From an uncultured Lachnospiraceae bacterium (lineage in GTDB: Bacteria; Bacillota; Clostridia; Lachnospirales; Lachnospiraceae): a stretch of 64,000 nucleotides of DNA. Every line of letters begins with the position of its first letter. Position 1 is the stretch's first letter. The stretch is taken from positions 1 through 64,000 of the forward strand of contig CADAOZ010000008.1 in NCBI GenBank assembly GCA_902789735.1, in the 5' to 3' direction. The notes under the pieces were generated by a model that did no database searches, was not told where the DNA came from, and saw only the letters and a list, made by a program, of their open reading frames with translations. Shown piece after piece: positions 4,606-62,470 of this stretch. The position numbers and the translations under genes are program-made.

Positions 4606-6273
4606 TCAGCAGAGATCATCCGGATCTACAAAGACTTCCAGGATCGAAGTGCCTTCCTCATCCAGGAAGGCCCGGATCGTCTCTTCCATCCCTTCATTGC
4701 TGTCCAGGCGCATGTATCCTACATGATAAGCCTGCGCCAGTTTGTCCAGATCGGGCGTGGTGCTCATATCGGTCACCGCGTGCCTGTCATGATAGGCGAA
4801 ATGCTGGTGCTGCCGGACCATGCCCAGCACATAGTTGCGGATGACCACAATCTTGACAGGGACCTCGTACTGATCCATGGTGGAAAGTTCCATCATGGTC
4901 ATCTGGAAAGCGCCGTCGCCGCAGACCGCGACGACCTGCCTGTCCGGCGCGCCCAGCCTGGCGCCCATGGCCGCGGGAACGGAATAGCCCATGGTCCCCA
5001 TGCCGCCGCTGGTCATGAACCTGCCTTTGCGGATCACTGCGTTGGCACAGGACCAGATCTGGTTCTGGCCTACATCGGCGATGTAGATGGCGTCTTCCTC
5101 CATGGCCAGGGACAGGCTGCGGATAAAGAGCCTGGGATCCACATAATCCCGGGAAGCCCTGACCTTGCGGTCCGCGATGCCCTGGGCCAGCCGCTTTTCA
5201 GATTCGGCCTTCACTTCGGCCCGGTATTTATCCAGCCATGCAAGCCATTCGGAATAGTCTACCTTGAGCTCCTTGGCATTGAACTCATCAAAAACATGTC
5301 TGATATCGCCGACCAGGGGAATGGTGGGACCGGCGTTCTTGCCGATTTCGGCGGGGTCTACATCGATATGGATCAGGACCTTGTTCTCCGTGATCAGATC
5401 GGGCTGGCTGATGGACCGGTCCGCCACGCGGGCGCCGACCATCAGGATCACATCCGCCTCATTCATGGCCCGGTTGCCGCACTTCTGGCCGTTATTGCCG
5501 ACCATGCCGTAGAAAAGGGGATGCTCGCTGGGCAGGCTCCCCAGTCCCATCATGGTAGAGACGCAGGGGATTCCGTGCTTTTCGGCAAAAGCCCTTACCT
5601 GCGCTTCGGCACCGGACAGATGGACGCCGCCGCCCGTGCAGATGATCGGGCGTTTTGCTCTGGAAAGCTCCCGGATGACACGCTTGATCTGAACCGGGTG
5701 TCCCTCCACAGTAGGCTTGTAAGTCCTTAAGTTGACACTGACCGGGTAGGCAAAACCTGCCACGCGGTCCATCAGGACATCGTGGGGGATGTCGATCAGG
5801 ACAGGCCCCTTACGGCCGGTATTGGCGATATGGAAGGCCTCCTTGACGACTCTGGGAATGTCGGAAGCCCTGCGGACGATATAACTGAATTTGACAAAGG
5901 ATTCGCAGGCGCCGGAAATATCCGCCTCCTGGAACACGTCGCTTCCCATCAGTCTGCTGTCGACCTGCCCGGTAATGCACACCATGGGAATGCTGTCGGC
6001 AAAAGCGGTGGCGATGCCTGTGATCAGGTTGGTCGCGCCGGGGCCGCTGGTTACAGCTGCCACGCCGGGCTTGCCGCTGGCCCTGGTATAGCCGCTGGCC
6101 GCATGGCCCGCGCACTGTTCATGACGGACCAGAACCGTATGGATCTTACTGTCCAGCATGGAGTTGAAGAAAGGAGCGATGGCAACGCCCGGATAGCCGA
6201 ACACATATTCCACGTTCTCTTCTTCCAGACTTCTGACGAGCGCGTCCGCGCCGGTAACAACTTTTCTCAACAT
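4606..6273 (-). CDS. ilvB: acetolactate synthase catalytic subunit
   Basis: Thiamine-diphosphate enzyme that condenses two pyruvates, or pyruvate with 2-oxobutyrate, as the first committed step to branched-chain amino acids. The 555-residue chain has the N-terminal PYR domain with VFGYPGVAIAPFF and the catalytic glutamate in RHEQCAGHAASGY, a central domain, and the C-terminal ThDP/Mg2+ motif beginning GDGAFQM. I chose the ATG at 6273, seven bases after AAAAGGAC, because the protein then begins just before the conserved TGADALVRSLEEENV. It starts the ilv operon, with a leader of paired CGGGAAC/GTTCCCG elements between it and tyrS. Confidence 0.95.
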   Translation of the reverse strand: MLRKVVTGADALVRSLEEENVEYVFGYPGVAIAPFFNSMLDSKIHTVLVRHEQCAGHAASGYTRASGKPGVAAVTSGPGATNLITGIATAFADSIPMVCITGQVDSRLMGSDVFQEADISGACESFVKFSYIVRRASDIPRVVKEAFHIANTGRKGPVLIDIPHDVLMDRVAGFAYPVSVNLRTYKPTVEGHPVQIKRVIRELSRAKRPIICTGGGVHLSGAEAQVRAFAEKHGIPCVSTMMGLGSLPSEHPLFYGMVGNNGQKCGNRAMNEADVILMVGARVADRSISQPDLITENKVLIHIDVDPAEIGKNAGPTIPLVGDIRHVFDEFNAKELKVDYSEWLAWLDKYRAEVKAESEKRLAQGIADRKVRASRDYVDPRLFIRSLSLAMEEDAIYIADVGQNQIWSCANAVIRKGRFMTSGGMGTMGYSVPAAMGARLGAPDRQVVAVCGDGAFQMTMMELSTMDQYEVPVKIVVIRNYVLGMVRQHQHFAYHDRHAVTDMSTTPDLDKLAQAYHVGYMRLDSNEGMEETIRAFLDEEGTSILEVFVDPDDLC

Positions 6274-6457: not shown

Positions 6458-7690
6458 TTATGCTTTGTAAATGACCTTTTTGAAGCTCTTCTTGCCGCGC
6501 TTGACCAGCTTCCCGTCCTTCAGATCCTCTTTGGAATAGGTCGTGCCGATATCCGTGACCTTCTGTCCGTCGACGCTGACGCCGCCCTGCTGGACCGCCC
6601 GTCTGGCTTCGGATCTGGAAGGGGTCAGGCCGCTCTTTACCAGGATGGCCAGAATGTCCATGGTCCCATCTTCTGAGAAGAATTCTTCTTTCATCTCGGT
6701 CTCGGGTACATTGTCCATGGAAGCCGCGCCGCCGGAAAACAGGGCCGTCGCGCCGGCCTTGGCCTTTTTGGCCTCATCTTCGCCATGGACCAGGGTGGTC
6801 AGTTCATCTGCCAGGATGATCTTGGCTTCGTTGAGCTGGCTGCCTTCCCATTTATCCATCTCATCGATCTGCTCAAGAGGAAGGAAAGTCAGCATCCGCA
6901 GGCACTTGAGGACATCCGCGTCGCCCACGTTCCGCCAGTACTGGTAGAAATCGTAGGGGCTGGTCTTGTCGGGATCCAGCCAGACAGCGCCTTTGGCGGT
7001 CTTGCCCATCTTCTTGCCCTCGGAATTGAGCAGCAGGGTGATGGTCATGGCGTGGGCGTCCTTGCCCAGCTTTTTGCGGATCAGCTCGGTGCCGGCCAGC
7101 ATGTTGCTCCACTGGTCATCGCCTCCGAACTGCATGTTGACGCCGTAACGCTGGTAGAGCTCCAGGAAATCGTAGGCCTGCATGATCATGTAGTTGAACT
7201 CCAGAAAGCTGAGTCCGTTCTCCATCCTCTGCTCGTAGCATCTGGCACGCAGCATGTTGTTGACGGAGAAATGGGCGCCGATGTCCCGGATAAATTCGAT
7301 ATAGTTGAGGTCGCGGAGCCAGTCCGCGTTATTGACCATCATGGCCTTGCCTTCACCGAACTCGATGAAGCGGCTCATCTGTTTTTTGAAGCATTCACAG
7401 TTATGGTCGATCTTTTCGACTGTCATCATGGTACGCAGGTCCGTACGGCCGGAGGGGTCGCCGATCATACCTGTTCCGCCGCCGACCAGAGCGACCGGCT
7501 GGTTGCCCGCCATCTGCAGGCGCTTCATCAGCAGGAGGGCCATAAAATGGCCTACATGCAGGGAATCCGCCGTAGGGTCAAAGCCGATATAAAATTTGGC
7601 CCTGCCGTTGTTGACCAGCTCCCTGACCTGGTCTTCGCTCGTGATCTGTGCCAGCAGGCCCCTTGCCTGCAGTTCTTCATAGATTTTCAT
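6458..7690 (-). CDS. tyrS: tyrosyl-tRNA synthetase
   Basis: Charges tRNA-Tyr with tyrosine in the cytosol. The 410-residue class I enzyme has the HIGH-type motif HVGH at residues 45-48, the ATP-loop motif KMGKT (a KMSKS variant) near residue 230, the tyrosine-binding YDF/QFGGDDQW segments, and a C-terminal S4 RNA-binding domain (SRSEARRAVQQGGVSVDG). It lies 35 bases downstream of gpsA, with no room for its own T-box leader, so it is probably cotranscribed with der-plsY-gpsA. That is a little unusual, since tyrS in Firmicutes is often under a separate T-box. Confidence 0.97.
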   Translation of the reverse strand: MKIYEELQARGLLAQITSEDQVRELVNNGRAKFYIGFDPTADSLHVGHFMALLLMKRLQMAGNQPVALVGGGTGMIGDPSGRTDLRTMMTVEKIDHNCECFKKQMSRFIEFGEGKAMMVNNADWLRDLNYIEFIRDIGAHFSVNNMLRARCYEQRMENGLSFLEFNYMIMQAYDFLELYQRYGVNMQFGGDDQWSNMLAGTELIRKKLGKDAHAMTITLLLNSEGKKMGKTAKGAVWLDPDKTSPYDFYQYWRNVGDADVLKCLRMLTFLPLEQIDEMDKWEGSQLNEAKIILADELTTLVHGEDEAKKAKAGATALFSGGAASMDNVPETEMKEEFFSEDGTMDILAILVKSGLTPSRSEARRAVQQGGVSVDGQKVTDIGTTYSKEDLKDGKLVKRGKKSFKKVIYKA

Positions 7691-7725
7691 GTGCTGTCAA
7701 ATCTCTCTTTCTGTCTGTATTTGGA

Positions 7726-8739
7726 TCAGTCATTCCACATCTGACCGTTGATCTCATTCTTTTTATCCCGCTGCATCAGGGCGCTGACCTCTTCCGCGGG
7801 AGATTTTCCGTTAAAGAGGACCTGATTGGCCGCGTCGATGATGGGCGCTTCCACGCCGTACTTCCTGGCCAGCTGCAGGCCGGCTCTGGCGCTGTAGACG
7901 CCCTCTACGACCTGTTTGACCTCATCCATGGCTTCTTCCGGCGTTTTGCCCTGGCCGATCAGGATACCGGCCCGGCGGTTGCGGGAGTGCATGGAGGCAC
8001 AGGTGACGATCAGGTCGCCGATCCCGGTCAGTCCGGAGAAGGTCTCCGCCCTGCCGCCGGCTGCGATTCCAATCCTGCTGATCTCGGCAATGCCTCTGGT
8101 GATCAGAAGGGCCTTGGTATTGTCTCCATAGCCCAGTCCGTCCGCGACGCCCGCCGCCAGCGCGACTACGTTCTTGAGAGCCGCGCCCAGTTCCATGCCC
8201 CGCATATCGGGGCTGGTATAGACGCGCAGGGATTTATCCATGAACAGGCTCTGGACATATTCCGCGGCGGTCCTGGTCCTGGCGCCCGCTACAATGGCGG
8301 TCGGCAGTCCCTTGCCGACTTCCTCCGCGTGGGTGGGACCGCAGAGCACAGCGACCTCCGCCTGGGGGATCTCCTGACGGATGATCTCGCTCAGGGTCAT
8401 CAGACTGTCCTCTTCAATGCCCTTGGCCACAGAGACGATCAGCTGACCGAATCTGCAGTAGGGGGCCATACGCTTTGCCGTGCTTCTGGTAAAGGGAGAC
8501 GGTACCGCCAGTACGACCGCGTCTTTATCGGACATGGCCTCATGCAGATCTGTGGTAGCCTCCACCGCGTCCGGAAGAATGACTCCGGGCAGCTTGACCT
8601 TCTGCTCGTGGTCTTCGTTCAGCATGCGGACTTCGTCCTCCGCGATGGACCACACCTTTACCTCATGCCCGTTCTGCGCCAGGCGCCATGTCAGGGCCGT
8701 ACCCCAGCTTCCCGCGCCAATGACTCCGATTTTTGCCAT
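7726..8739 (-). CDS. gpsA: glycerol-3-phosphate dehydrogenase [NAD(P)+]
   Basis: Reduces dihydroxyacetone phosphate to sn-glycerol-3-phosphate, the backbone for phospholipids and teichoic acids. It has 337 residues, normal length. The Rossmann motif GAGSWGTAL opens the protein, AVPSPFTR and SVAKGIEE mark the family, and the C-terminal substrate domain contains LKNVVALAAG with the catalytic lysine and GLTGIGDLIVTC. It sits between plsY and tyrS, 74 bases after plsY, whose product uses glycerol-3-phosphate as acyl acceptor, so coexpression is logical. Confidence 0.97.
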   Translation of the reverse strand: MAKIGVIGAGSWGTALTWRLAQNGHEVKVWSIAEDEVRMLNEDHEQKVKLPGVILPDAVEATTDLHEAMSDKDAVVLAVPSPFTRSTAKRMAPYCRFGQLIVSVAKGIEEDSLMTLSEIIRQEIPQAEVAVLCGPTHAEEVGKGLPTAIVAGARTRTAAEYVQSLFMDKSLRVYTSPDMRGMELGAALKNVVALAAGVADGLGYGDNTKALLITRGIAEISRIGIAAGGRAETFSGLTGIGDLIVTCASMHSRNRRAGILIGQGKTPEEAMDEVKQVVEGVYSARAGLQLARKYGVEAPIIDAANQVLFNGKSPAEEVSALMQRDKKNEINGQMWND

Positions 8740-53282: not shown

Positions 53283-55175
53283 TCAGTTTTTCTTTTTGGG
53301 AATGAATTTCTGATAGATATCAAAGGTCTCCTGGTCATAAGCACACATGATGACTGTCATGCCATAGCTCTGGTTCTCCCGGATCCACTGGGCGCAGGCG
53401 CCGAAAGCGATCTTGGCGGCCTCCTCTTTGGGATAACCGAAAATACCGGTGGAGATGGCCGGGAATACAACGGATTTGAGCTTGTTGTCCCTGGCCAGGT
53501 TCAGGCTGTTCCTGTAGGCTTCCGCCAGCAGGGTCCTGTCCTCATCTGTTCCGTGATACACCGGGCCGACCGCGTGGATGACCTTTTTGTGGGGCAGGTT
53601 GTAGGCGTCTGTAATGACTGCCTCACCGGTCCTGCAGCCGCCCAGCTTCGCGCAGGCTTCGGCCAGTTCCGGACCGGCCGCCGCGTGGATGGCGCCGCAG
53701 ACGCCGCCGCCGGGACGCAGGGACTCATTGGCGGCGTTGACGATCGCATCCGCCTTGAACTGTGTAATATCACCCTTGGCAAAAACGATCCGGCCGGCGC
53801 CCGCCTGTTTCTTTTTGACTTCTTCATTGGCCTTCAGGATCGCTTCGATGGCTCCCAGAGGCAGGAACATGCTCTGGTCCTGCAGATTCAGGACAATGCC
53901 GGAGATGGACGCCGCGATCCTGTCCGGGGAATCCTTCTGTTCCAGCATGCGCTTGAACAGGTTCTCCATGGGGAAGGTCAGAACGGAGATCTTGCGGGCC
54001 CCGGTCTTCTTCAGCTGGGCTTCGCTGGTATAGGCCGGCTGCCAGAGCTTGCCGTCCTTTGTCCGGATGGCCTGCATATTCATTTTGTTTCCGCCGACCC
54101 GCATGTTTTTGCCGGGGTTGACCGCCACGGGTACCAGGAGCCTGCCGCCCTGGTTCATACGGATCCGGATGGCCTCCATGACTTTATAAGCGTTCTCTTT
54201 GGAATTTTCCTTTTTCCACAGGCCGATGGCTTCCTCTATGGGCTCGTTGCCGACAGCCTTGAGCTGGTCAGGGGCCGGACGGCCGGGCTTCGCCGCGGTC
54301 TTCGCGGCAGGTTTGAACATATTGTCCCAGGCGGCCTTTCTGGCGGGATCCGCTTCTCTGTCCTTTTTGTCCTGTTCAATGACTTCATCAAAACGGACCA
54401 GAACGGCCAGCAGGTCGGAGGAAAGCGCCGCCCTGGCGGACCGTTTCAGTTCTTCCGGCACACCGTAGAAGGCTTCCGCCATGGATCCGGCAATGGCGGT
54501 CAGGGTATCGGAATCGCCCCCCAGAGAGACCGCCGTACGGATCACATCCTCAAAGTCCTTTCCTTCCAGAAAAGCCGTCATGGCTTCCGGCACCGTCTCC
54601 TGGCAGGATTCCACATGGTGATAGTCCGGCCGGATCTGGTCACAGGTCCTGGACAGGTTGTAACCGTAGTGCTTTACGACGTAATCTTTGATCTGGTCCT
54701 TGGTCTGCCCGTGCAGGGCCATGAAGATGGCGGCAGCGGTGGCCTCCGCCCCTTTGATGCCTTCCGGATGATTATGGGTGACTTCGGCTGTCAGCCTGGC
54801 CACATGGAGCATTCTCTCAAAATCCTCCTGATAGAGCCACGGCACTGCGGAAACACGCATGGCAGATCCGTTCCCGTAACTGTTATAGGGCTTGGGATCC
54901 TTCTGGTTGAGCCAGACACTGAAATTGATGCCGTAGCCGGCCAGCGGATAGGCCTGTCCGTACTTCTGCATGGATGAGACCAGCGCTTCTTTGATCTCCT
55001 CATCCGAAGCGTCCCGGCTTACATCCATCAGGGCCTCGCCGACGGCCAGGGTCATGATGGAATCGTCTGTGAATTCAGACCTGTCCGAAAACAGTTCAAA
55101 TTCCTTGGTCTTGATATTATGTGAATCGAATTCATAAGGGCTGCCGATAATATCGCCCAATATTGCTCCGTACAT
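53283..55175 (-). CDS. ADP-ribosylglycohydrolase-SseB-macro fusion
   Basis: The 630-residue protein has three domains. Residues 1-265 are an ADP-ribosylglycohydrolase (GAILGDIIGSPYEF, metal-site FTDDSIMT, terminal SLGGDSDTLTAIAGSMAEA), with the acidic metal ligands intact. After a Lys/Ala/Pro linker, about 305-455 resemble the SseB N-terminal domain (AYKVMEAIRI, RTKDGKLWQPAYTSEAQL, GIVLNLQDQSMFLPLGAIEAI). About 460-630 form a macro domain with intact NAANESLRPGGGVCGAIHAA and PAISTGIFGYP. Both outer domains belong to families that remove ADP-ribose from protein or nucleic acid. AGGAGGG lies before the ATG, and the gene follows the phosphatase stop after two bases. The targets are unknown. Confidence 0.85.
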   Translation of the reverse strand: MYGAILGDIIGSPYEFDSHNIKTKEFELFSDRSEFTDDSIMTLAVGEALMDVSRDASDEEIKEALVSSMQKYGQAYPLAGYGINFSVWLNQKDPKPYNSYGNGSAMRVSAVPWLYQEDFERMLHVARLTAEVTHNHPEGIKGAEATAAAIFMALHGQTKDQIKDYVVKHYGYNLSRTCDQIRPDYHHVESCQETVPEAMTAFLEGKDFEDVIRTAVSLGGDSDTLTAIAGSMAEAFYGVPEELKRSARAALSSDLLAVLVRFDEVIEQDKKDREADPARKAAWDNMFKPAAKTAAKPGRPAPDQLKAVGNEPIEEAIGLWKKENSKENAYKVMEAIRIRMNQGGRLLVPVAVNPGKNMRVGGNKMNMQAIRTKDGKLWQPAYTSEAQLKKTGARKISVLTFPMENLFKRMLEQKDSPDRIAASISGIVLNLQDQSMFLPLGAIEAILKANEEVKKKQAGAGRIVFAKGDITQFKADAIVNAANESLRPGGGVCGAIHAAAGPELAEACAKLGGCRTGEAVITDAYNLPHKKVIHAVGPVYHGTDEDRTLLAEAYRNSLNLARDNKLKSVVFPAISTGIFGYPKEEAAKIAFGACAQWIRENQSYGMTVIMCAYDQETFDIYQKFIPKKKN

Positions 55176-55177
55176 TA

Positions 55178-56005
55178 CTATCCCTCCTGTAATACAAATT
55201 GTTCGACAGCATCCGCTACCCCGTCATGTTCATTGTCGCCGGTCACATGGTCGGCGATCTCCAGGATATGCGGCGCCGCGTTCCCCATGGCAACGGAAAG
55301 CCCGGACCGCTCCAGAAGGCTGCGGTCATTGTCTCCGTCTCCCATGGCCATCACATCTTCTGCCGCGATGCCCAGTATGGCTGCCAGCCGCATCAGGGCG
55401 TCCCCCTTTTCCGCGGCCTCATGGGTGATCTCCAGGTCTGTCGGCCAGGGATGGATCACCCGGATCCCGCTGACGGCTTCCAGTCTCGCGCAGGTCAGAT
55501 TCCTGCCGGCCGGATTGGAAAACATCAGGGAAATATTCTCGATCCTACCGTTGAAATGACTGAGGAATTCCTCCAGGCTGTGCATGGACCTGCGGCTGCG
55601 CCGCAGATAATCCATGACCGGCGTGCCTGCAAAGCGCTCCTCCAGTCTGCGGGAGGTGTCCGGCGTATGGTATCCGTAACCGCCGGCAAATATCTCTGCG
55701 ATCGGATCAAGGTCTTCCGCGGCCGCCAGGACCTCCATGGCCTTCCGGGGCTCCATGCCGGTTTCCCGGAGGATGGCCTTCCTGCTCAGATCATAAATAC
55801 AGGCTCCGTTGGAGGTCACCGCGTAACGGATTCCCCGGATCCCGTCCAGTTCCGCCGGCAGGCCCGCCAGGGGACGGCCGGTCACGGGAACGATCCCGAC
55901 GCCTCTCTCCGCGGCCCGGTTCAGGGCTGCGGCAGTCCGTTCCGTTATTTTTTTCTCTCTGGTCAGCAGGGTCCCGTCCAGATCCAGTCCTATCAGTCGA
56001 ATCAA
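55178..56005 (-). CDS. Cof-type HAD-superfamily phosphatase
   Basis: A 275-residue HAD hydrolase of the Cof/type IIB group: DLDGTLLT carries the nucleophile and acid Asp, VTGRP motif II, the lysine in EKGDAL, and MGDGDNDRSLL motif IV. Such enzymes dephosphorylate sugar phosphates, flavins or nucleotides; the substrate cannot be read from sequence. The start is TTG 56005, six bases after GGAGG, giving LIRLIGLDLDG; earlier in-frame starts lack a site. It is directly coupled to the ADP-ribosylglycohydrolase fusion gene, which suggests a shared pathway, possibly handling a released sugar phosphate. Confidence 0.88.
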   Translation of the reverse strand: MIRLIGLDLDGTLLTREKKITERTAAALNRAAERGVGIVPVTGRPLAGLPAELDGIRGIRYAVTSNGACIYDLSRKAILRETGMEPRKAMEVLAAAEDLDPIAEIFAGGYGYHTPDTSRRLEERFAGTPVMDYLRRSRRSMHSLEEFLSHFNGRIENISLMFSNPAGRNLTCARLEAVSGIRVIHPWPTDLEITHEAAEKGDALMRLAAILGIAAEDVMAMGDGDNDRSLLERSGLSVAMGNAAPHILEIADHVTGDNEHDGVADAVEQFVLQEG

Positions 56006-56121
56006 TCCACACCTCCGATGCCGCTGATCCACAACCATGAATTGCATTGTGATGCGCACTGACTTCGTATTATATCATCTTTTCGGGCCTTTTCCTATAT
56101 AGCATTTTTCCGCAAACATGT

Positions 56122-56127
56122 TACAAT
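56122..56127 (+). promoter_or_regulatory. possible -10 element of the FtsK-like gene
   Basis: TACAAT preceded by TGT lies 108 bases before the start codon. No good -35 is seen at the right distance. The long GC-rich leader up to 56235 has no Shine-Dalgarno sequence; AGTCTGAT is repeated just before the ATG. Confidence 0.3.
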
Positions 56128-56235
56128 GTAGCGTACAGAAACGGCGCGGCCCGGCCGTGTCCGCCTGCTCGTACCGCCTGTCCTGCCGCTGTAAGGACCG
56201 GCCGAAGTATAAGTCTGATCGTGAAAGTCTGATAT

Positions 56236-57396
56236 ATGTCTGATTTTATTTTACCCGATATCGGAGATACGCTCCGATACCATACAAAATGGAACAGCCG
56301 GAAACTGCAGCCCTATGAAGAGGAGCTTTTTGATCTGTGGAATGAGCGGAATATCCGCTGTACCATTGAATTCGCAGTCCAGGGTCCTGTCCTGACCCGC
56401 TTCTCCATCACGCCCGAGAGCAAGACCAGCAGCCGCAAGATCATGGAACTGACGGATTATTACCGCAGCATCTTCCACAGGAGGGATATCATCCTTTATG
56501 AACACGGCGACAACATCTACCTGGATGTCCTGTGGCCCCAGGATCCTGTCTGGCTGGGCGATCTTCTGAACAGCCCCCAGTATATGGAATCCAGAGGTCT
56601 GCCGGCCGCAGCCGGCATGTCCATCGGCCACCGCTGTGTCTTTACGGAACTGACGGACGCTCCCGCCGTCCTGGCCGCGGGCGTCAAAGGCTCCGGGCTG
56701 ACGCCTTACCTGCACGGGGTCGTCATGAGCATGCTGCTCAACCGTACGCCGGATGATGTGGAACTCTTCCTGATCAGCGGCGGTCCGACGGATTTCGGTC
56801 TCTATGAAACGCTGCCCTACTGCCATGTCGTATCAGATCCCCGGGGCTCCCGCAGGATGCTCCTGGACATAGCAGGAGAGGTCGCCCACCGGGGCCACTT
56901 CCTTTACGAGAACCGCTGCCGGTCCATTTATGATTACAGGGGGGCCATGAACCATATCATTCTGGTCATCGGTGAAGCCGGCGGTCTGGTATCAGAGAGC
57001 CGCGAGGGTACTCTGACCGCCCTGCAGAGAATCGCCAATATAGGACCCGCCTGCGGCGTCCACCTGGTCATGGGGACTGCCCGCCCCGGCGTCCTGCGCT
57101 CCATTATGCGCTATTTTCCTGTCCGTCTCTGTTTCCGGACGGCTACCATAAATGATTCCCTGACCATGATGGAGACCAGGGGAGCGGAGAAACTGCCCGG
57201 CAAAGGGGAGTTCTTCTACATCGACGGTACCGGGGCAGATCCCTTTCTGCTGCAGTCAGCCCAGGTCAGCAGCCGGGAGATCCGCAGGGCCGTCAATATC
57301 CTGGCCTCCAATTTCAGTGAGGAAGAGATCCCCGAAACCAGTTCCGGCGGAGAAATGTCCTTCTGGGAGAAGCTCTTCTCCAAAGACATAGAATGA
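56236..57396 (+). CDS. degenerate FtsK/SpoIIIE-like protein, predicted inactive ATPase
   Basis: The 386-residue protein follows the order of an FtsK motor. Residues about 30-110 match the alpha domain (FAVQGPVLTRFSITPESKTSSRKI), then a RecA-like beta domain. The Walker A region reads GVKGSGLTPY where active FtsK has GTTGSGKSV, so the lysine is leucine. Walker B reads IILVIGEAGGLV instead of VVVIDELADLM, so the Asp is Gly. The DPK motif after the second strand is SGG. Structural features such as MLLNRTPDDVEL and GAEKLPGKGEFFY remain. There are no membrane segments and no gamma domain. It is probably a structural or regulatory relic. No ribosome binding site precedes the ATG, so expression is uncertain. 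It is on the plus strand, opposite its neighbours. Confidence 0.8.
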   Translation: MSDFILPDIGDTLRYHTKWNSRKLQPYEEELFDLWNERNIRCTIEFAVQGPVLTRFSITPESKTSSRKIMELTDYYRSIFHRRDIILYEHGDNIYLDVLWPQDPVWLGDLLNSPQYMESRGLPAAAGMSIGHRCVFTELTDAPAVLAAGVKGSGLTPYLHGVVMSMLLNRTPDDVELFLISGGPTDFGLYETLPYCHVVSDPRGSRRMLLDIAGEVAHRGHFLYENRCRSIYDYRGAMNHIILVIGEAGGLVSESREGTLTALQRIANIGPACGVHLVMGTARPGVLRSIMRYFPVRLCFRTATINDSLTMMETRGAEKLPGKGEFFYIDGTGADPFLLQSAQVSSREIRRAVNILASNFSEEEIPETSSGGEMSFWEKLFSKDIE

Positions 57397-57433
57397 GACT
57401 GCAGGCCGTACCGGAACGCCCGCAGACAAACAG

Positions 57434-57491
57434 ACAGCCCGCAGGAAGGAATCGCCGGTTCCCGGCATTCCCTTCCTGCGGGCTGTTTTTC
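57434..57491 (+). terminator. terminator of the FtsK-like gene
   Basis: A perfect 16-bp stem (57434-57449 with 57471-57486) has an inner GCCGG/CCGGC stem in its loop and is followed by TTTTTCTG. It lies 38 bases past the stop. Confidence 0.85.
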
Positions 57492-57651
57492 TGACTCCGG
57501 TCATGATGGATCTGTCCTCCCGAAAGCGGTCTCCCGGATCTGTTCCTGCCGGACGGTTTCCGGCATATGTTCCGCAGCCTGTTTTCCGGCAGGCAGTTCC
57601 CGCGGAAGCTGCCCGCCGTTCATGGGCCGGCGGATACGCAGGGTTTACCTG

Positions 57652-58110
57652 CTACATATCCGCCAGAACATCTTCCGCTGTGGCGTAGCCCAGCATGACC
57701 GATACCAGGGCGTCCCCGTAGATCCCGATCACATAAGCCGGCAGGGTGATCATATGATCGATGACATCATAGGAAGGCAGCTGTCCGTGACAGTCGACGC
57801 CGTAACGGAAGCGCACTTCTCCTGTATCCATATCCAGCACAAAGCCTCCGAAATTCAGGACATTGTCCAGACGCATCAGCAGGGACGCTGTCTGTTCCAT
57901 AGCCTCCGGAACAGCAGCGACCGGCAGCGATGTGCTGCTCATGATGGCTTTTTCCGTACAGAGGATCTTTGTCTCGATCCGGCGCAGTTTTCCTTCGACC
58001 GGTACTGACAGCCGGAAAATGCCTGCCGTTTCGTCAAAGGTATGAGGGGTCCCGTTCATGCCAAAATATCGTTCCAGAGCCCCTGCAAGTTCAGTGGAAT
58101 ATTCTGCCAT
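57652..58110 (-). CDS. small YbjN-like protein, function unknown
   Basis: A 152-residue acidic protein with no membrane segment. The alternating strands (FRLSVPVEGKLRRIETKILC, then GGFVLDMDTGEVRFRYGVDC) and the terminal helical region resemble the YbjN/secretion-chaperone-like fold, but the match is weak and I do not name it. AAGGAG lies before the ATG. It is 74 bases downstream of the AAA gene and is likely cotranscribed with it, so it may be a partner or chaperone for it. Nothing else is known from sequence. Confidence 0.6.
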   Translation of the reverse strand: MAEYSTELAGALERYFGMNGTPHTFDETAGIFRLSVPVEGKLRRIETKILCTEKAIMSSTSLPVAAVPEAMEQTASLLMRLDNVLNFGGFVLDMDTGEVRFRYGVDCHGQLPSYDVIDHMITLPAYVIGIYGDALVSVMLGYATAEDVLADM

Positions 58111-58184
58111 AACTCCTTCTCCTTTTCTTCTTGTTCGGGCCGGTCCCTGTCAGGCCCGGCTTTGTCCGCGGATCCGGAACTGTT

Positions 58185-60212
58185 TCAGATGCCGAATCCG
58201 TATTTTGATCCTGTACGATCCTTGCGGTTCAGCGTGACTGAACCCGATCTGGCCGCGTAAAGGAAATCCGATCTTTCCAGGGTCGGCGGTTCCTTGACAT
58301 CCTGTCCGTTCATCTGCATACGGAGAATGGCCCGGCTACGGGTCCGCTCCAGCAGGTTCTGTACGAATCTGGCGTTGGAGAATTTGCGGTCCCGGAGAAT
58401 CGATTCATCCAGGCCGGAGAAATACTCCCGCACCGCCTCTTTCATACCTTTGCCTGTCCGCATTCCCTGTTTATCCGCGATGGTCAGCAGGATCTCTCCC
58501 ATGTTTTCTCTGGAGAAATCCGTAAATGTGATCTCGTAGGGCATCAGCTGTTTCAGATCGGGATACAGTTCCCGCAGCCTGGCGATGTCTTTGGCGGAAC
58601 CTGCCAGTATGACCGTCATATCCTGCCGGTGGTCGTCCATCAGCGTCAGCAGGACGCTCATGGCCTGGCCGGCGTAATCCGTATCTCCCTCCAGGCCGTT
58701 ACGGTCGGGCCTGGGCTTTTCCCCGCCGGCCCGGGTCTCCGGGAAGAAATCCTCCAGTTCATCCACCAGAAGAACATTGCCCACCGCATTGCGGCACAGG
58801 TTCATGGTGTTGGGCACGGTACGTCCCAGATGGGGAATCACGAAATCCCGGCTCCTGTGCTCAAAGAGCAGGCCGTCGCTGAGCAGGCCTTTCTCCCGCA
58901 GCATGACGGCTGCCAGACGGGCTGCCGTACTCCTGCCGGTCCCCACATCACCGGTAAAACATATGTGCATGGGGGCAGCAGTATTTCCTTTCTTTGTCCG
59001 CTTTTTGGCGATATCTTCCACCGCCTCCCGCAGCTGGCTGACGGGTTCCTCAAAGCCGGTCAGGCCGGCAATGATCTGGTCCGCGTCCTTGTCCCAGCTG
59101 CGGCTGCGGACCAGCCCTTCCAGATGTACCGGTGAGATCACTTCCGATTCTTCCCCGGTCCTGGCTTCATAACACATCTTCATATAGACGATCTCGTCCA
59201 GGATCTTGTCAGCTGTCAGGATCCCGCTGAAATGGCCGTCAGCCTTTTCCTCGGTGATCCGCTGGCGGAACATCCTGCCGGCGTCTTCATCCAGGCGGTA
59301 GCCCATATCTGCCAGTTCGTCCTCCACCATCTCCTGCAGCTGACAGACATTATGGGGCACGAAAGTCAGCGTCCGGATGTGCATGATATCACAGAGGACT
59401 GTTTCGATCATCTCCAGGGTGATCCGGGTCAGATAGGGGACCCGGAAGACATAGATCACGTTCTCCGTGTTGTCCTGCAGACTTTCCAGAAAATCCCTGA
59501 ATTCCGGCGCATCGATCCTGTCGATCCATTCGGAAATATCCAGAGAGACAATGATATTGCTGGCCAGGGCCAGGGCGGACGAAAAGGCCTCCAGGACATC
59601 TTCCGTCTGATTCTGTCCCAGAATGTTCTGGGCGGCGCCGGGGCCCATGGACTGCTGCATGGCCGCCGAAAGAGGCACCTTCCGCTCCACGACCCTGACA
59701 GCTTCAAAAAGCCCTTCTTCTTTCAGGAACCTGGAGAACAGGTTCAGGGAAAGAGACAGCACTTCACTGGACTCACAGGAGATCAGATAGCTCCTGCTGA
59801 TAAAGACCTGGCTGGCCTGGCGCCGCAGCAGACGGGGCGCCACCCCATGGATCTCCTCGCAAAGGCTGATAAATTCCTCCGCGCCGTGGATCTTACGGAT
59901 CTCATCCATGACCGTAGCCGCCTGCTCATCCTCCCGGTCGGGCGCGTCCGGAATCGGGGAAAAGTCCATCATTTTGGCCGCCGCTTCCGGACTGATCTCA
60001 TATTCTCTGACCAGGGCCTGGACCGCCTTCTCTCCCGCCTGCTCCAGCAGCTCCTCCTTTTCCAGACGGATCACCAGGGAAAAAGCCTCCTTGCCCAGAA
60101 TGCTGACGCCCTCCAGGGCTGACAGGGTCTCCTCCAGCAGTTCAGACGGTACTTTACGCGCGTAGAACTGTTTCTTCACAAATTCTTCATTCAGTTTGAT
60201 CAGTATATTCAT
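58185..60212 (-). CDS. two-module AAA protein, CbbX/SpoVK type, Walker A Lys to Arg
   Basis: A 675-residue protein. The C-terminal half is a CbbX/SpoVK-type AAA domain: Walker A GDVGTGRSTAARL near residue 423, Walker B VLLVDELEDFF near 484, sensor 1 VILAGSAKDI, and the family element FSNARFVQNLLERT. The Walker A lysine is arginine, which normally impairs ATP hydrolysis. The N-terminal half (about 100-330) looks like a second AAA fold with a Walker B-like NIIVSLDIS but no P-loop. Close relatives act as remodelling chaperones. ATG 60212 follows GGGGGA. It probably forms a unit with the YbjN-like gene. Whether it is an active ATPase is open. Confidence 0.8.
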   Translation of the reverse strand: MNILIKLNEEFVKKQFYARKVPSELLEETLSALEGVSILGKEAFSLVIRLEKEELLEQAGEKAVQALVREYEISPEAAAKMMDFSPIPDAPDREDEQAATVMDEIRKIHGAEEFISLCEEIHGVAPRLLRRQASQVFISRSYLISCESSEVLSLSLNLFSRFLKEEGLFEAVRVVERKVPLSAAMQQSMGPGAAQNILGQNQTEDVLEAFSSALALASNIIVSLDISEWIDRIDAPEFRDFLESLQDNTENVIYVFRVPYLTRITLEMIETVLCDIMHIRTLTFVPHNVCQLQEMVEDELADMGYRLDEDAGRMFRQRITEEKADGHFSGILTADKILDEIVYMKMCYEARTGEESEVISPVHLEGLVRSRSWDKDADQIIAGLTGFEEPVSQLREAVEDIAKKRTKKGNTAAPMHICFTGDVGTGRSTAARLAAVMLREKGLLSDGLLFEHRSRDFVIPHLGRTVPNTMNLCRNAVGNVLLVDELEDFFPETRAGGEKPRPDRNGLEGDTDYAGQAMSVLLTLMDDHRQDMTVILAGSAKDIARLRELYPDLKQLMPYEITFTDFSRENMGEILLTIADKQGMRTGKGMKEAVREYFSGLDESILRDRKFSNARFVQNLLERTRSRAILRMQMNGQDVKEPPTLERSDFLYAARSGSVTLNRKDRTGSKYGFGI

Positions 60213-60321
60213 GTCATTTCCCCCGGATGCCGAAATCATTTTTCATACCGGCCGGTCCCCGGCCGGACGCTCTTCACAGAGGCCCCAAAGGTCTCTGCAG
60301 GCGCATATACTGTTTTATTTC

Positions 60322-60348
60322 ATTATAACAGAAAAAGCATACTGTCGA
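60322..60348 (-). promoter_or_regulatory. candidate promoter of the AAA gene
   Basis: On the minus strand TCGACA (60348-60343), 15 bases and TATAAT (60327-60322), about 110 bases upstream of the start. The -10 is consensus; the spacing is short. Confidence 0.45.
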
Positions 60349-60442
60349 TATACTGTGTTCCCCTGCGGGATTTCCGGCCGGTCAGAACCGCAGGGCATCG
60401 GCCAATATGACCATACTGCGTATATGCTCATGTTCCGGAAGG

Positions 60443-60525
60443 GATCCTGGAAAGTATTCCGGAAGGTATTCTGGAAGGCATCCTGAAAGGCATCCTGAAA
60501 GGCATCCCGGAAGGTATCCTGACAG
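60443..60525. repeat. 12-bp minisatellite, about seven copies
   Basis: Adjacent units of the form GYATYCYGRAAG run from 60443 to 60525: GTATTCCGGAAG, GTATTCTGGAAG, GCATCCTGAAAG twice, GCATCCCGGAAG and GTATCCTGACAG, with a degenerate 11-base unit at the start. The period keeps reading frame, giving DAFQ-like four-residue repeats on the minus strand, but no gene with a start context spans it. It lies between the AAA promoter and the terminator of the next gene. The 60213-60637 gap holds no other gene. Confidence 0.75.
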
Positions 60526-60549
60526 GCATGTCCCGGAAGACCGGCAAAA

Positions 60550-60580
60550 AAAATCACCTGCCGGGCAGACAGGTGATTTT
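60550..60580 (-). terminator. terminator of the macro-SseB-NADAR gene
   Basis: An 11-bp stem (60550-60560 with 60570-60580) with a nine-base loop; on the minus strand it runs into eight T residues. Strong intrinsic terminator, 58 bases past the stop. Confidence 0.85.
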
Positions 60581-60637
60581 TATATGGAAATATCTGTTTT
60601 TCCTTTATGCAGGGTCCTGTATACAGAGACGGCCCTT

Positions 60638-62380
60638 TTAATCCAGACTGCCGTTCTCTTCCGCCAGGGTGGCGCGGACCTCCATCAGGGCTTTGCCCAG
60701 GAGGTTCTGTCCTCTCCAGCGGCTGCTGTCGCGGGCCGAGGGATCGGAAGCGGACAGGCCGATGCCCCAGATCCTGTCAAAAGGACTTGCCTCCGCCAGG
60801 ACGCTGCCGCCGGTCTCCAGGAGTTTTTCCAGGAGTACGGGATTCTGGCGGAATTTGGCCAGATTGCCGTTATAGACGATCTCTTCCCTGCACGCGATCC
60901 AGACATCGTTATTGAAAGGCCGGATGTTCCTGCCCAGTTCTTTGATCTTCTGGGGATCCGCCGCCGCCATGATCTGGTGGTAAGCGATGATATCATGGAA
61001 GACCAGCGCCTTCTTGGCCATCATATACTGTTCCATGCAATTGTATTCCACGCCTTCTACCGTGAACATGCAGGAATACCACTGGCTCAGGAAATTGTAG
61101 CGTTCGTTCTTGCCGTCCTTCCAGAAGAATACCATCGGGCCGGAAGGCATGGTGCCGCCCGCATTATAGGCATCTCTGGCTTTCTTTTTGCCGGCTTTGG
61201 CTGTTCTGGACCGGTCGGCTTCTTTTTCCGGGGCGGCAGGACGGACAGGCTCCTCTGCCTGTACGGGAACAGCAGGCTCCTCTTCCGATGCCGGCTCAGC
61301 GGCCGCAGGCTCTTCCGCAGCTGCCTTATCCCTGTTATCCGCCGGCGCTTCCGCTTCCGCCGGATGCTCCAGCCTGGAGGGGATCCTGGGGATCAGGTCC
61401 GCCAGTTCGAAAGGCAGCATGAGTACGTCTGTAAAAGCATCCAGGACCAGTCCGGAAGTTCCCTGAGATTCATGGGCCAGACGGATGCAGCGGAGCATGG
61501 GCAGGCGCACGCCGGTGGAAGATTCATCATAGTCCTCCGGGATCTGCGCTTCCTGAGAGAAGACAGGGAAATACAGATTCCTGTCAGGTCCCTGCAGGAT
61601 ATCGGGCGCCACCACGCCTTCCGCGTCGCTGCTGACAGGTACGACCACTTCGGAATCCCGCAGGCAGGAAAGGAGGGCGTAAAGATTCTCCTCAGAATCA
61701 TCCTCCAGATAGGCCTTTTTCAGATCCAGAAGCACACTGCCGTCTTCCAGGACCGAGGGATCAATGGTCGGGGGCTCCTCCGGCGGAGCGGCAGGCGCCG
61801 CGGGGCTGCCGTCCTCCTCCTGACCGGGGATCAGCTCCAGAGCGCCCTGGACCTGGGTGGAGGAAATATAGGCTTTGGCCGTGACCTCACCGATATAACG
61901 GACTTCTTCATCAAATACCGCGAACAGGACCGTCATGTCATAATCCGGTACAGAGTGCAGGAAGTCTACAACGGCCTGGACTGCCACATGCCAGGCTTCT
62001 TCCACGGGGTACCCGAAATTGCCGGTAGACAGCAGGGGAAAGCCGATCGAATGGCAGTCCAGCTGCATGGCCAGCCGCATGGATTTCTGATAAGCAGAGT
62101 ACAGGAGTCTGGGTTCACCATGATTGCCCCCTCTCCAGATCGGACCGACCGCATGGATGATATAACCCGCGTCCAGCCCGTAGCCGGATGTCACGACAGC
62201 GGAGCCGGTATCACAGTGGCCGATCTTCTTACAGGCATCCCGCAGGAACAGCCTGCCCGCTTTTGTATATATTTCGCTGCAGACACGTCCGCCTTCCATC
62301 AGGGACTCATTGGCCTCATTGACCAGAGCCTCTACCGGCAGATCTGTAATCCCGCATTTTAAAACCTGAATTGCACTCAT
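60638..62380 (-). CDS. macro-SseB-NADAR fusion
   Basis: The 580-residue protein has a macro domain (1-170) whose usual NAAN reads NEAN and whose catalytic GGGVxGAIH loop reads GGRVCSEIY, so it may only bind ADP-ribose. An SseB-like domain follows (about 210-345; NLYALLSCLRDSEVVVPV, then TSGLVLDAFTDVLMLPFEL), then an Ala/Glu/Pro-rich linker. Residues about 415-575 form a NADAR/YbiA domain with FTVEGVEYNCMEQYMMAKKA, FDRIWGIGLS and GQNLLGKALMEVR. NADAR enzymes remove ADP-ribose from guanine or cleave riboflavin intermediates. ATG 62380 follows GGAGGA; the frame upstream lacks a site. It mirrors the domain set of the fusion at 53283-55175. Confidence 0.85.
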   Translation of the reverse strand: MSAIQVLKCGITDLPVEALVNEANESLMEGGRVCSEIYTKAGRLFLRDACKKIGHCDTGSAVVTSGYGLDAGYIIHAVGPIWRGGNHGEPRLLYSAYQKSMRLAMQLDCHSIGFPLLSTGNFGYPVEEAWHVAVQAVVDFLHSVPDYDMTVLFAVFDEEVRYIGEVTAKAYISSTQVQGALELIPGQEEDGSPAAPAAPPEEPPTIDPSVLEDGSVLLDLKKAYLEDDSEENLYALLSCLRDSEVVVPVSSDAEGVVAPDILQGPDRNLYFPVFSQEAQIPEDYDESSTGVRLPMLRCIRLAHESQGTSGLVLDAFTDVLMLPFELADLIPRIPSRLEHPAEAEAPADNRDKAAAEEPAAAEPASEEEPAVPVQAEEPVRPAAPEKEADRSRTAKAGKKKARDAYNAGGTMPSGPMVFFWKDGKNERYNFLSQWYSCMFTVEGVEYNCMEQYMMAKKALVFHDIIAYHQIMAAADPQKIKELGRNIRPFNNDVWIACREEIVYNGNLAKFRQNPVLLEKLLETGGSVLAEASPFDRIWGIGLSASDPSARDSSRWRGQNLLGKALMEVRATLAEENGSLD

Positions 62381-62470
62381 GTATTTTCCTCCAGAAAACG
62401 ATTTGGACCTGACGTCCCTTTCCAAAAACAGCCGGACAGTCCCGGAAAGGGACTGCCGGAGCAAACTATG

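Follow-up and report, generated by a model that had tools for sequence, protein, structure and literature searches.

We analyzed a locus encoding two three-domain fusion proteins in a window of 64,000 nucleotides, by which we mean the whole stretch of DNA under study (positions 1 to 64,000 of contig CADAOZ010000008.1, assembly GCA_902789735.1, from an uncultured Lachnospiraceae bacterium; genome G000). A preliminary description of this DNA had proposed that one protein joins an ADP-ribosylglycohydrolase (ARG), an SseB and a macro domain (here named P1) and the other a macro, an SseB and a NADAR domain (P2). Both architectures were confirmed by Pfam at the positions given there, on the minus strand, which had been left unstated; the frames are exact, and the plus-strand translations are other sequences. 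All six domains exceed the Pfam gathering scores (whole-protein scores), with E-values of 4.9e-37 (ADP_ribosyl_GH), 5.6e-15 (SseB) and 2.7e-45 (Macro) for P1, and 9.4e-33 (Macro), 7.3e-12 (SseB) and 3.4e-52 (NADAR) for P2; SseB and NADAR are hence detectable with profile hidden Markov models, as had been expected. The features of the locus are the following:

53283-55175, minus strand: P1, 630 amino acids (aa), with ARG at residues 1-238, SseB at 312-442 and Macro at 478-589 (Pfam).
55178-56059, minus strand: HAD phosphatase, Cof-type HAD-IIB (Pfam Hydrolase_3, E-value 1.3e-46).
56236-57396, plus strand: FtsK/EssC-like protein of 386 aa, without the Walker A lysine (Pfam FtsK_SpoIIIE, 1.8e-15).
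57652-58110, minus strand: YbjN/type III secretion (T3S) chaperone-fold protein of 152 aa, TY-chaperone-like (fold search).
58185-60239, minus strand: CbbX/EccA/SpoVK-like AAA+ protein, with the Walker A K replaced by R (Pfam AAA, AAA_lid_6).
60555-60571, minus strand: weak terminator-like hairpin with a T-run, located between P2 and AAA.
60638-62380, minus strand: P2, 580 aa, with Macro at residues 20-133, SseB at 223-319 and NADAR at 418-572 (Pfam).

Along the minus strand, P2 is followed by the AAA gene, the gene of the 152-aa protein, the HAD gene and P1. As the HAD gene ends only 2 bases upstream of P1, the two likely form one operon, and the FtsK-like gene is divergent from it. The P2 frame is open to a TTG at 62464; the ATG at 62380 was retained as the start because the P2 proteins of two other species (G332 and G354) align from there. 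The AAA protein has 684 aa counted from 60239, or 675 aa from an ATG at 60212. In G332 identical genes occur in identical order, with protein identities to the window of 96% for P1 and 93% for P2. The ratio of nonsynonymous to synonymous substitution rates (dN/dS) against G332 is 0.05 for P1, 0.09 for P2 and 0.04-0.16 over the six genes of the locus, with 0.03 and 0.21 for the flanking controls ackA and tmcAL. Given this identity, the kept gene order and the low dN/dS, P1 and P2 are real, constrained genes and not chance frames.

In the ARG domain of P1, T36 D37 D38 and G219-T224 (GGDSDT), the two di-metal motifs of ARH/DraG enzymes (TDD[ST] and GGDSDT), are invariant in all 14 aligned rows. 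P1 shares these two metal motifs with the ARH/DraG hydrolases, Tri1 included; it differs from them in its fusion to SseB and Macro and in that no partner transferase was found, and it scores far below the cut-offs of the DraG and Tri1 equivalog models (for Tri1, 43 bits against 490). The macro domain of P1 is of the MacroD kind (MACROD2, 2.5e-61 in a profile search against the PDB), and that of P2 has its nearest PDB match in D. radiodurans DR_2288, followed by YmdB-type proteins. MacroD/YmdB hydrolases are thus among the best solved relatives of both domains. Their catalytic Asp and His are the D and the H of the loop GGGVDGxIH. The P1 loop, GGGVCG, has Cys at the Asp position in five of the 14 rows (window, G332, G351, G350 and G297), whereas eight rows keep Asp and one has lost the loop. 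In P2 the loop reads GGRVCSEIY, with Cys for Asp and the His also gone; since it departs in this way from the loop of the solved relatives, the P2 macro domain is likelier to bind ADP-ribose than to cut it.

The NADAR residues E450, K457 and E567 of P2 align with those of P. nicotianae NADAR (8bau) and E. coli YbiA (2b3w). Because the last-strand residue E567 matches the Glu of both, the domain is, judged by these positions, of YbiA type and not of DarT1 type; according to excerpts of PMC11125620, BC4488-type NADARs carry Asp in the last strand and YbiA-type ones Glu. Excerpts of PMC11543638 describe the E and K positions as important in the E. coli C7 NADAR for guanine de-ADP-ribosylation, and in those of PMC11833690 and PMC11125620 NADARs reverse guanine-ADP-ribose on RNA and DNA, while phosphate-end ADP-ribosylation is reversed by macrodomain and ARH-like enzymes. 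P2 therefore resembles the DarT1-NADAR pairs (DarTG1) in its E and K residues and differs from them in the last-strand Glu.

The earlier remark that no ADP-ribosyltransferase (ART) is visible held. Among the 12 neighbours scanned with Pfam, of which two have no match above chance, none carries such a domain, and no DarT (PF14487) was found in G000, G332 or G354, other transferase families not having been searched genome-wide. A DarT-type toxin-antitoxin system is ruled out by the missing DarT together with the Glu, rather than Asp, in the NADAR domain.

The distribution of the locus was analyzed in 62 genomes of the genus (63-99% complete, many of them incomplete), 295 of the order and 397 of the family, the window's own genome being counted in each set; PF14487 is present in one of the genus genomes (G295). 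Among the matches listed, P1 is recovered at full length by a single match in 16/62 genus genomes; in G355 one 630-aa frame gives two matches, and in G336 and G304 P1 is broken at contig ends. The full P2 architecture was found in three genomes of the genus, G000, G332 and G354, the last as two matches in one 579-aa frame. Besides these, none of the matches listed for the order and family sets spans Macro, SseB and NADAR: the longest covers residues 1-241 (G705, with stops), and in G456 (family) and G127 (order) Macro and NADAR matches share one frame but are too close together for an SseB domain to fit. The distance between P1 and P2 is 3.9-5.5 kb in every genome that has P2. The presence of both fusions within 15 kb in other genomes, which the preliminary description had named as a check, is therefore seen in two other species; SseB and NADAR having been found and the pair co-occurring outside this species, that part of the proposal stands.

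Macro-NADAR fusions without SseB also exist in the genus (L110:4982-6010, L111:9823-11274 and L112:3636-5087), the latter two with about 160 residues lacking a Pfam match between the domains, and tandem NADAR-Macro proteins are noted in viruses in an excerpt of PMC9503650. Like P2, viral and bacterial fusions of this kind carry two enzymes in one chain; P2 is different in the SseB domain between them and in its linkage to P1.

The FtsK-like protein has orthologues (>400 bits) in 34/62 genus genomes. We examined 35 loci, 34 of them with the FtsK-like gene, and within 6 kb of it found a HAD gene in 32/34, an ARG gene in 30/34 and FtsZ in 14/34; 13 of the 14 FtsZ genes sit within about 530 bases. 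Some stretches end at contig ends, which possibly explains the absence of FtsZ or ARG near part of the FtsK-like genes. HAD and FtsK-like genes occur without ARG in G298, G300, G333 and G353 (in G353 the ARG gene is on another contig), and in one clade the ARG gene carries SseB and no Macro. In a locus of that clade (L223, the only one scanned with Pfam here), an alpha/beta hydrolase gene (7555-8337) and a second HAD gene (5390-6124) flank the FtsK-like gene, and genes of similar size are seen in most sister loci. The block is bordered on one side by tmcAL-ackA-plsX and on the other, in G301, by genes for FtsZ, a weakly DivIB-like protein, FtsW/RodA, a glycosyl transferase 4 protein (MraY by position) and a penicillin-binding protein. 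The AAA orthologue is full length by one match in 6/62 genus genomes, with a diverged form in G307 (three pieces of a 710-aa frame) and a fragment in G308.

The core block is thus syntenic and constrained, whereas the AAA gene, the YbjN-fold gene and P2 are variably present. Since the block is syntenic across the genus, with the AAA gene in 6 and P2 in 3 of the 62 genomes, P1, HAD and FtsK-like genes look like an old base block, and the other three look like additions to it. This does not agree with the earlier idea that P1 and P2 are a matched set. On the ground of core synteny we also rejected a prophage or a defence island as the setting of P1, and the core-chromosome position argues against a dedicated defence island. 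A search of viral contigs with the queries P0002 and P0003 (the latter being the four-domain protein treated below) gave no relative, the short exact patterns used being able to detect nothing but close ones, and no place in the phage records covers 80% of P0002 or P0003; consequently, a phage origin of the fusions is unsupported in these collections.

In order to survey ARG-SseB genes, 80 named loci were kept of 491 and analyzed with our own profiles, with Pfam applied to ten of these and related proteins. A single-SseB ARG-SseB gene occurs in 17 of the 80 (Blautia and Butyrivibrio included), and ARG-SseB-Macro is also found in Oribacterium. Because a Macro gene lies in the fetched stretch in 12 of the 17, P1 looks by its composition like the fusion of a common gene pair. 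In several Clostridia (L128, L131, L137, L164 and L168), a Macro gene placed before ARG or ARG-SseB has a conserved C-terminal region of about 150-200 residues, helix-turn-helix-like by eye; Pfam recognises nothing in this region in L131, L137 and L164, the three copies to which it was applied.

The SseB domains were compared in a tree of 69 domains with long branches, in which P2 is represented by four rows from three genomes (G000 twice). The P2 domains form one clade (support 98/94), and a branch with support 100/99 splits them from P1-type SseB. On the P2 side, in an unresolved fork, stand the second SseB of ARG-SseB-SseB proteins, the SseB of L168 and SseB domains fused to Nitro_FeMo-Co or Sel1. 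A constraint that groups P2 with this clade's six SseB rows from P1 makes the tree 38 log units worse (p-AU 0.0175 in the approximately unbiased, AU, test), a result to be taken with caution given the long branches and the choice of the group after the tree was seen. A second AU test, of P2 with all ARG-SseB-Macro rows, says little, since these rows do not form a single clade even when P2 is left out. In G000, SseB also occurs apart from ADP-ribose enzymes, fused to Nitro_FeMo-Co (L003:13569-14435) and to Sel1 repeats (L199:7758-9011), and is therefore a general module in this genome. The proposal that SseB serves P1 and P2 as a common dock is not supported by these different groups and unrelated fusions. 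The different groups, with macro domains that are about 40% alike, also rule out P1 and P2 as duplicates of each other.

As for the partner proteins, the HAD protein is above the NCBIfam cut-off for HAD-SF-IIB and reaches 136.9 against a cut-off of 137 for the Cof subfamily. The FtsK-like protein matches FtsK (4.4e-44), YukB (6e-20) and EccC5 (3e-19) in profile searches against the PDB. Of its 34 orthologues, 33 open reading frames were recovered (a false antisense frame most likely masked the L108 copy), and the Walker A motif GxxxxGK[ST] is in none of them, which rules out a working translocase. The AAA protein matches CbbX (2.8e-29) and EccA1 (2.5e-21), and its altered Walker A, GxxGTGRS, is kept in 6/6 orthologues. 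Both proteins score far below the cut-offs for the type VII secretion system, and neither a WXG100 substrate nor membrane genes of that system turned up beside the ATPases in scans made for other purposes. The fold of the 152-aa protein was found by the fold search alone, with no Pfam match and no convincing match of its profile to PDB sequences.

The window flank on the P1 side consists of tmcAL (HIGH_NTase1 by Pfam), pta, ackA and plsX, the last three named by eye from their translations. On the P2 side lie genes for a HelD/UvrD-like helicase, a glycosyltransferase, an Mbeg1-like hydrolase, a GDSL lipase, CinA and a BspA-type leucine-rich repeat protein. The promoter scan of the region was no better than for shuffled sequence, and an Rfam scan of 51-64 kb gave no match.

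The closest known counterparts are the predicted ARG-centred host systems without ART of Iyer et al. 2022 (PMC9503650, section 3.8), proposed to undo viral ADP-ribosylation. A phosphatase is present in a little over 55% of these systems and a Nudix or WYL transcription factor in over 42%; their predicted peptide-binding chaperone is SseB, TY-Chap (YbjN/T3S) or vWA, and Macro and NADAR are variable. The present locus shares with them the ARG without ART, the coupled phosphatase, SseB, a YbjN/T3S-like chaperone, Macro and NADAR. It differs in belonging to Bacillota rather than the lineages named there, in having the domains fused into two proteins, in showing no Nudix/WYL regulator among the 12 neighbours scanned, in its additional Walker-less FtsK-like protein and AAA protein with altered Walker A, and in its core chromosomal position. 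The locus fits that parts list and is a variant of an already predicted system, so it cannot be called undescribed, as had been proposed. The link of an FtsK-like protein to ARG is absent from section 3.8 of PMC9503650, and none of the titles and abstract openings in a limited literature collection dealt with either fusion, with the FtsK link or with the four-domain protein treated below. In sum, the domains, the lack of DarT and the co-occurrence in the preliminary description hold, whereas the common dock, the matched set and the claim of an undescribed system are not supported.

We tentatively favour the explanation that a unit for removing ADP-ribose has P1 and the HAD phosphatase as its old core and P2 as a lineage-specific extension. 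The role of the unit is most likely the removal of ADP-ribose added by enzymes encoded elsewhere. The ARG domain of P1 would cut ADP-ribose off modified macromolecules, its macro domain would bind ADP-ribose or act on a further linkage, and the HAD enzyme may remove phosphate from what is released. SseB, like the nearby YbjN-fold protein, would hold client proteins. A few species would have added the AAA protein and the YbjN-fold chaperone, and three of them also P2, contributing a YbiA-type NADAR that could in principle remove ADP-ribose from guanine and is carried by a probably binding macro domain. The modification itself is probably made elsewhere, by toxins of an incoming phage or competitor, or by an unrecognised enzyme of the cell. 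The data establish the domains, the metal and NADAR residues, the linkage, the constraint and the folds, whereas the catalytic activities, a common pathway, the order of gains and the origin of the modification are inferred.

Several observations weigh against this account. The activity of both proteins as full erasers is not assured from their motifs, because Cys replaces the MacroD Asp in this clade's P1 and in P2, where the His is missing too, and because the P1 relative of G354 has lost both the macro loop and the HNHPE segment of ARG. In the P2 of G332, position 567 is Q instead of E. The P2 NADAR passes TIGR02464, the model of a riboflavin biosynthesis intermediates N-glycosidase (153.3 bits against a cut-off of 73.7), and in an excerpt of PMC11125620 E. 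coli YbiA was active in vitro yet did not rescue cells from DarT1. Moreover, P1 and P2 seem to be transcribed separately in this locus, since the FtsK-like gene lies between them on the opposite strand and a possible terminator follows P2; the evidence for this terminator is weak, with 15 hairpin and T-run sites in the region against 9.0 (standard deviation 3.2) in shuffled sequence.

A host counter-phage system as described by Iyer et al., reversing phage ADP-ribosylation of host molecules and induced on infection, appears rather unlikely, although the parts match section 3.8 of PMC9503650. Fast evolution and variable accretion are the hallmarks of conflict systems. The P2 NADAR matches the PADLOC candidate PDC-M42C (1.8e-52), PADLOC also links the FtsK-like protein to a portion of SspH (2.2e-15), and P2 matches an NCBIfam NADAR anti-phage model, far below its cut-off (30 of 240 bits). 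The same explanation would suit G354, whose atypical locus lacks the HAD gene and has a degenerate P1, and where P2 adjoins defence-like genes: a helicase-nuclease with DUF4011/MTES_1575/DUF3320 (PADLOC PDC-S37, Hhe) and an AbiO/Nhi-type helicase. However, P1, HAD and FtsK-like genes sit in the core chromosome beside tmcAL/ackA/plsX, with FtsZ in 14 of the 34 loci; a scan of the 12 neighbours, which did not extend to genes further away, detected neither a Nudix nor a WYL domain; PADLOC gives no match for P1, HAD, AAA or the YbjN-fold protein; and dN/dS is low. The G354 copy of P2 is the most diverged one, and the defence-like stretch upstream of it (L094:1218-10662) encodes the AbiO/Nhi-type helicase, a HelD-like helicase and the helicase-nuclease, which has 1955 aa.

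It is unlikely as well that the locus serves metabolite clean-up, with NADAR acting on damaged riboflavin intermediates, macro on O-acetyl-ADP-ribose or a related compound and HAD on small molecules. The TIGR02464 score and the housekeeping location point in this direction, both macro domains match O-acetyl-ADP-ribose deacetylase models of NCBIfam, below cut-off, and some ARG enzymes act on O-acetyl-ADP-ribose according to an excerpt of PMC9503650. In the same source, the main substrates of characterised ARG members are ADP-ribosylated proteins, and those YbiA-type NADARs that have been tested cleave guanine-ADP-ribose in vitro as well (PMC11125620, excerpt); furthermore, the client-binding SseB and YbjN folds would be left without a clear role.

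A broader idea, which we regard as quite improbable, is that of a fixed division-side chromosomal unit of this genus, often next to FtsZ, in which ARG-SseB (with or without Macro), HAD and the Walker-less FtsK-like scaffold were repeatedly upgraded with erasers (the NADAR of P2 here, a single chain with PARG, ARG, NADAR and Macro in other genomes of the genus) and form a broad-spectrum shield protecting the machinery of division and envelope from ADP-ribosyltransferases that come in from outside. Very doubtful is the matched set, in which P1 and P2 arose together and form one complex through related SseB domains, covering several linkages. P2 is near P1 in 3/3 genomes and SseB is central in both proteins; in addition, the tandem of both SseB groups in ARG-SseB-SseB proteins (L082, L133, L135 and L167) could mean contact between the groups. 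Nevertheless, the SseB domains of P1 and P2 belong to different groups, P2 is missing from most P1-bearing genomes of the genus, and SseB is also fused to unrelated domains.

The Tri1 immunity hydrolase protects FtsZ from ADP-ribosylation, but an arrangement in which the dead FtsK-like protein tethers the ARG hydrolase and so shields FtsZ or its partners is the least probable of all, as the proximity of the FtsK-like gene to ARG (30/34) and FtsZ (14/34) and the weak Tri1 match of P1 are set against the lack of FtsZ within 6 kb in the window and in 20/34 loci (some stretches ending at contig ends) and against core synteny, which alone can account for the 14 FtsZ loci.

Additionally, a protein with four erasers, of 1054-1062 aa, was observed in three genomes of the genus: L193:7268-10429 (G321), L194:10159-13344 (G307) and L195:4919-8080 (G328). 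Pfam places PARG at residues 10-169, ARG at 320-648, NADAR at 702-854 and Macro at 881-993 of the L193 copy, to which the L194 and L195 copies can be aligned from end to end (68% and 97% identical). GGG..QEE, SDDT/GDSDST, the NADAR E/K/E residues and GGGGVDGAIH are conserved in 3/3 copies, and all four active-site motifs look intact. When the 397 family genomes were searched with this protein, the longest matches listed were PARG-ARG halves (G358, G372 and G701); in these family searches up to three candidates per genome were scored for P2 and up to two for the four-domain protein.

Bacterial ADP-ribose erasers without a writer are a known gap with regard to their substrates and the source of the modification. 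The locus offers a compact, testable set for this question: two fusions with complementary enzyme families, a HAD phosphatase, a YbjN-fold chaperone and a dead FtsK-like protein. The latter accompanies the hydrolase (30 of 34 loci have ARG within 6 kb) and presents a concrete interaction to test, and the four-eraser protein could usefully serve as a reagent and would directly probe whether bacteria deal with many ADP-ribose linkages at the same time.

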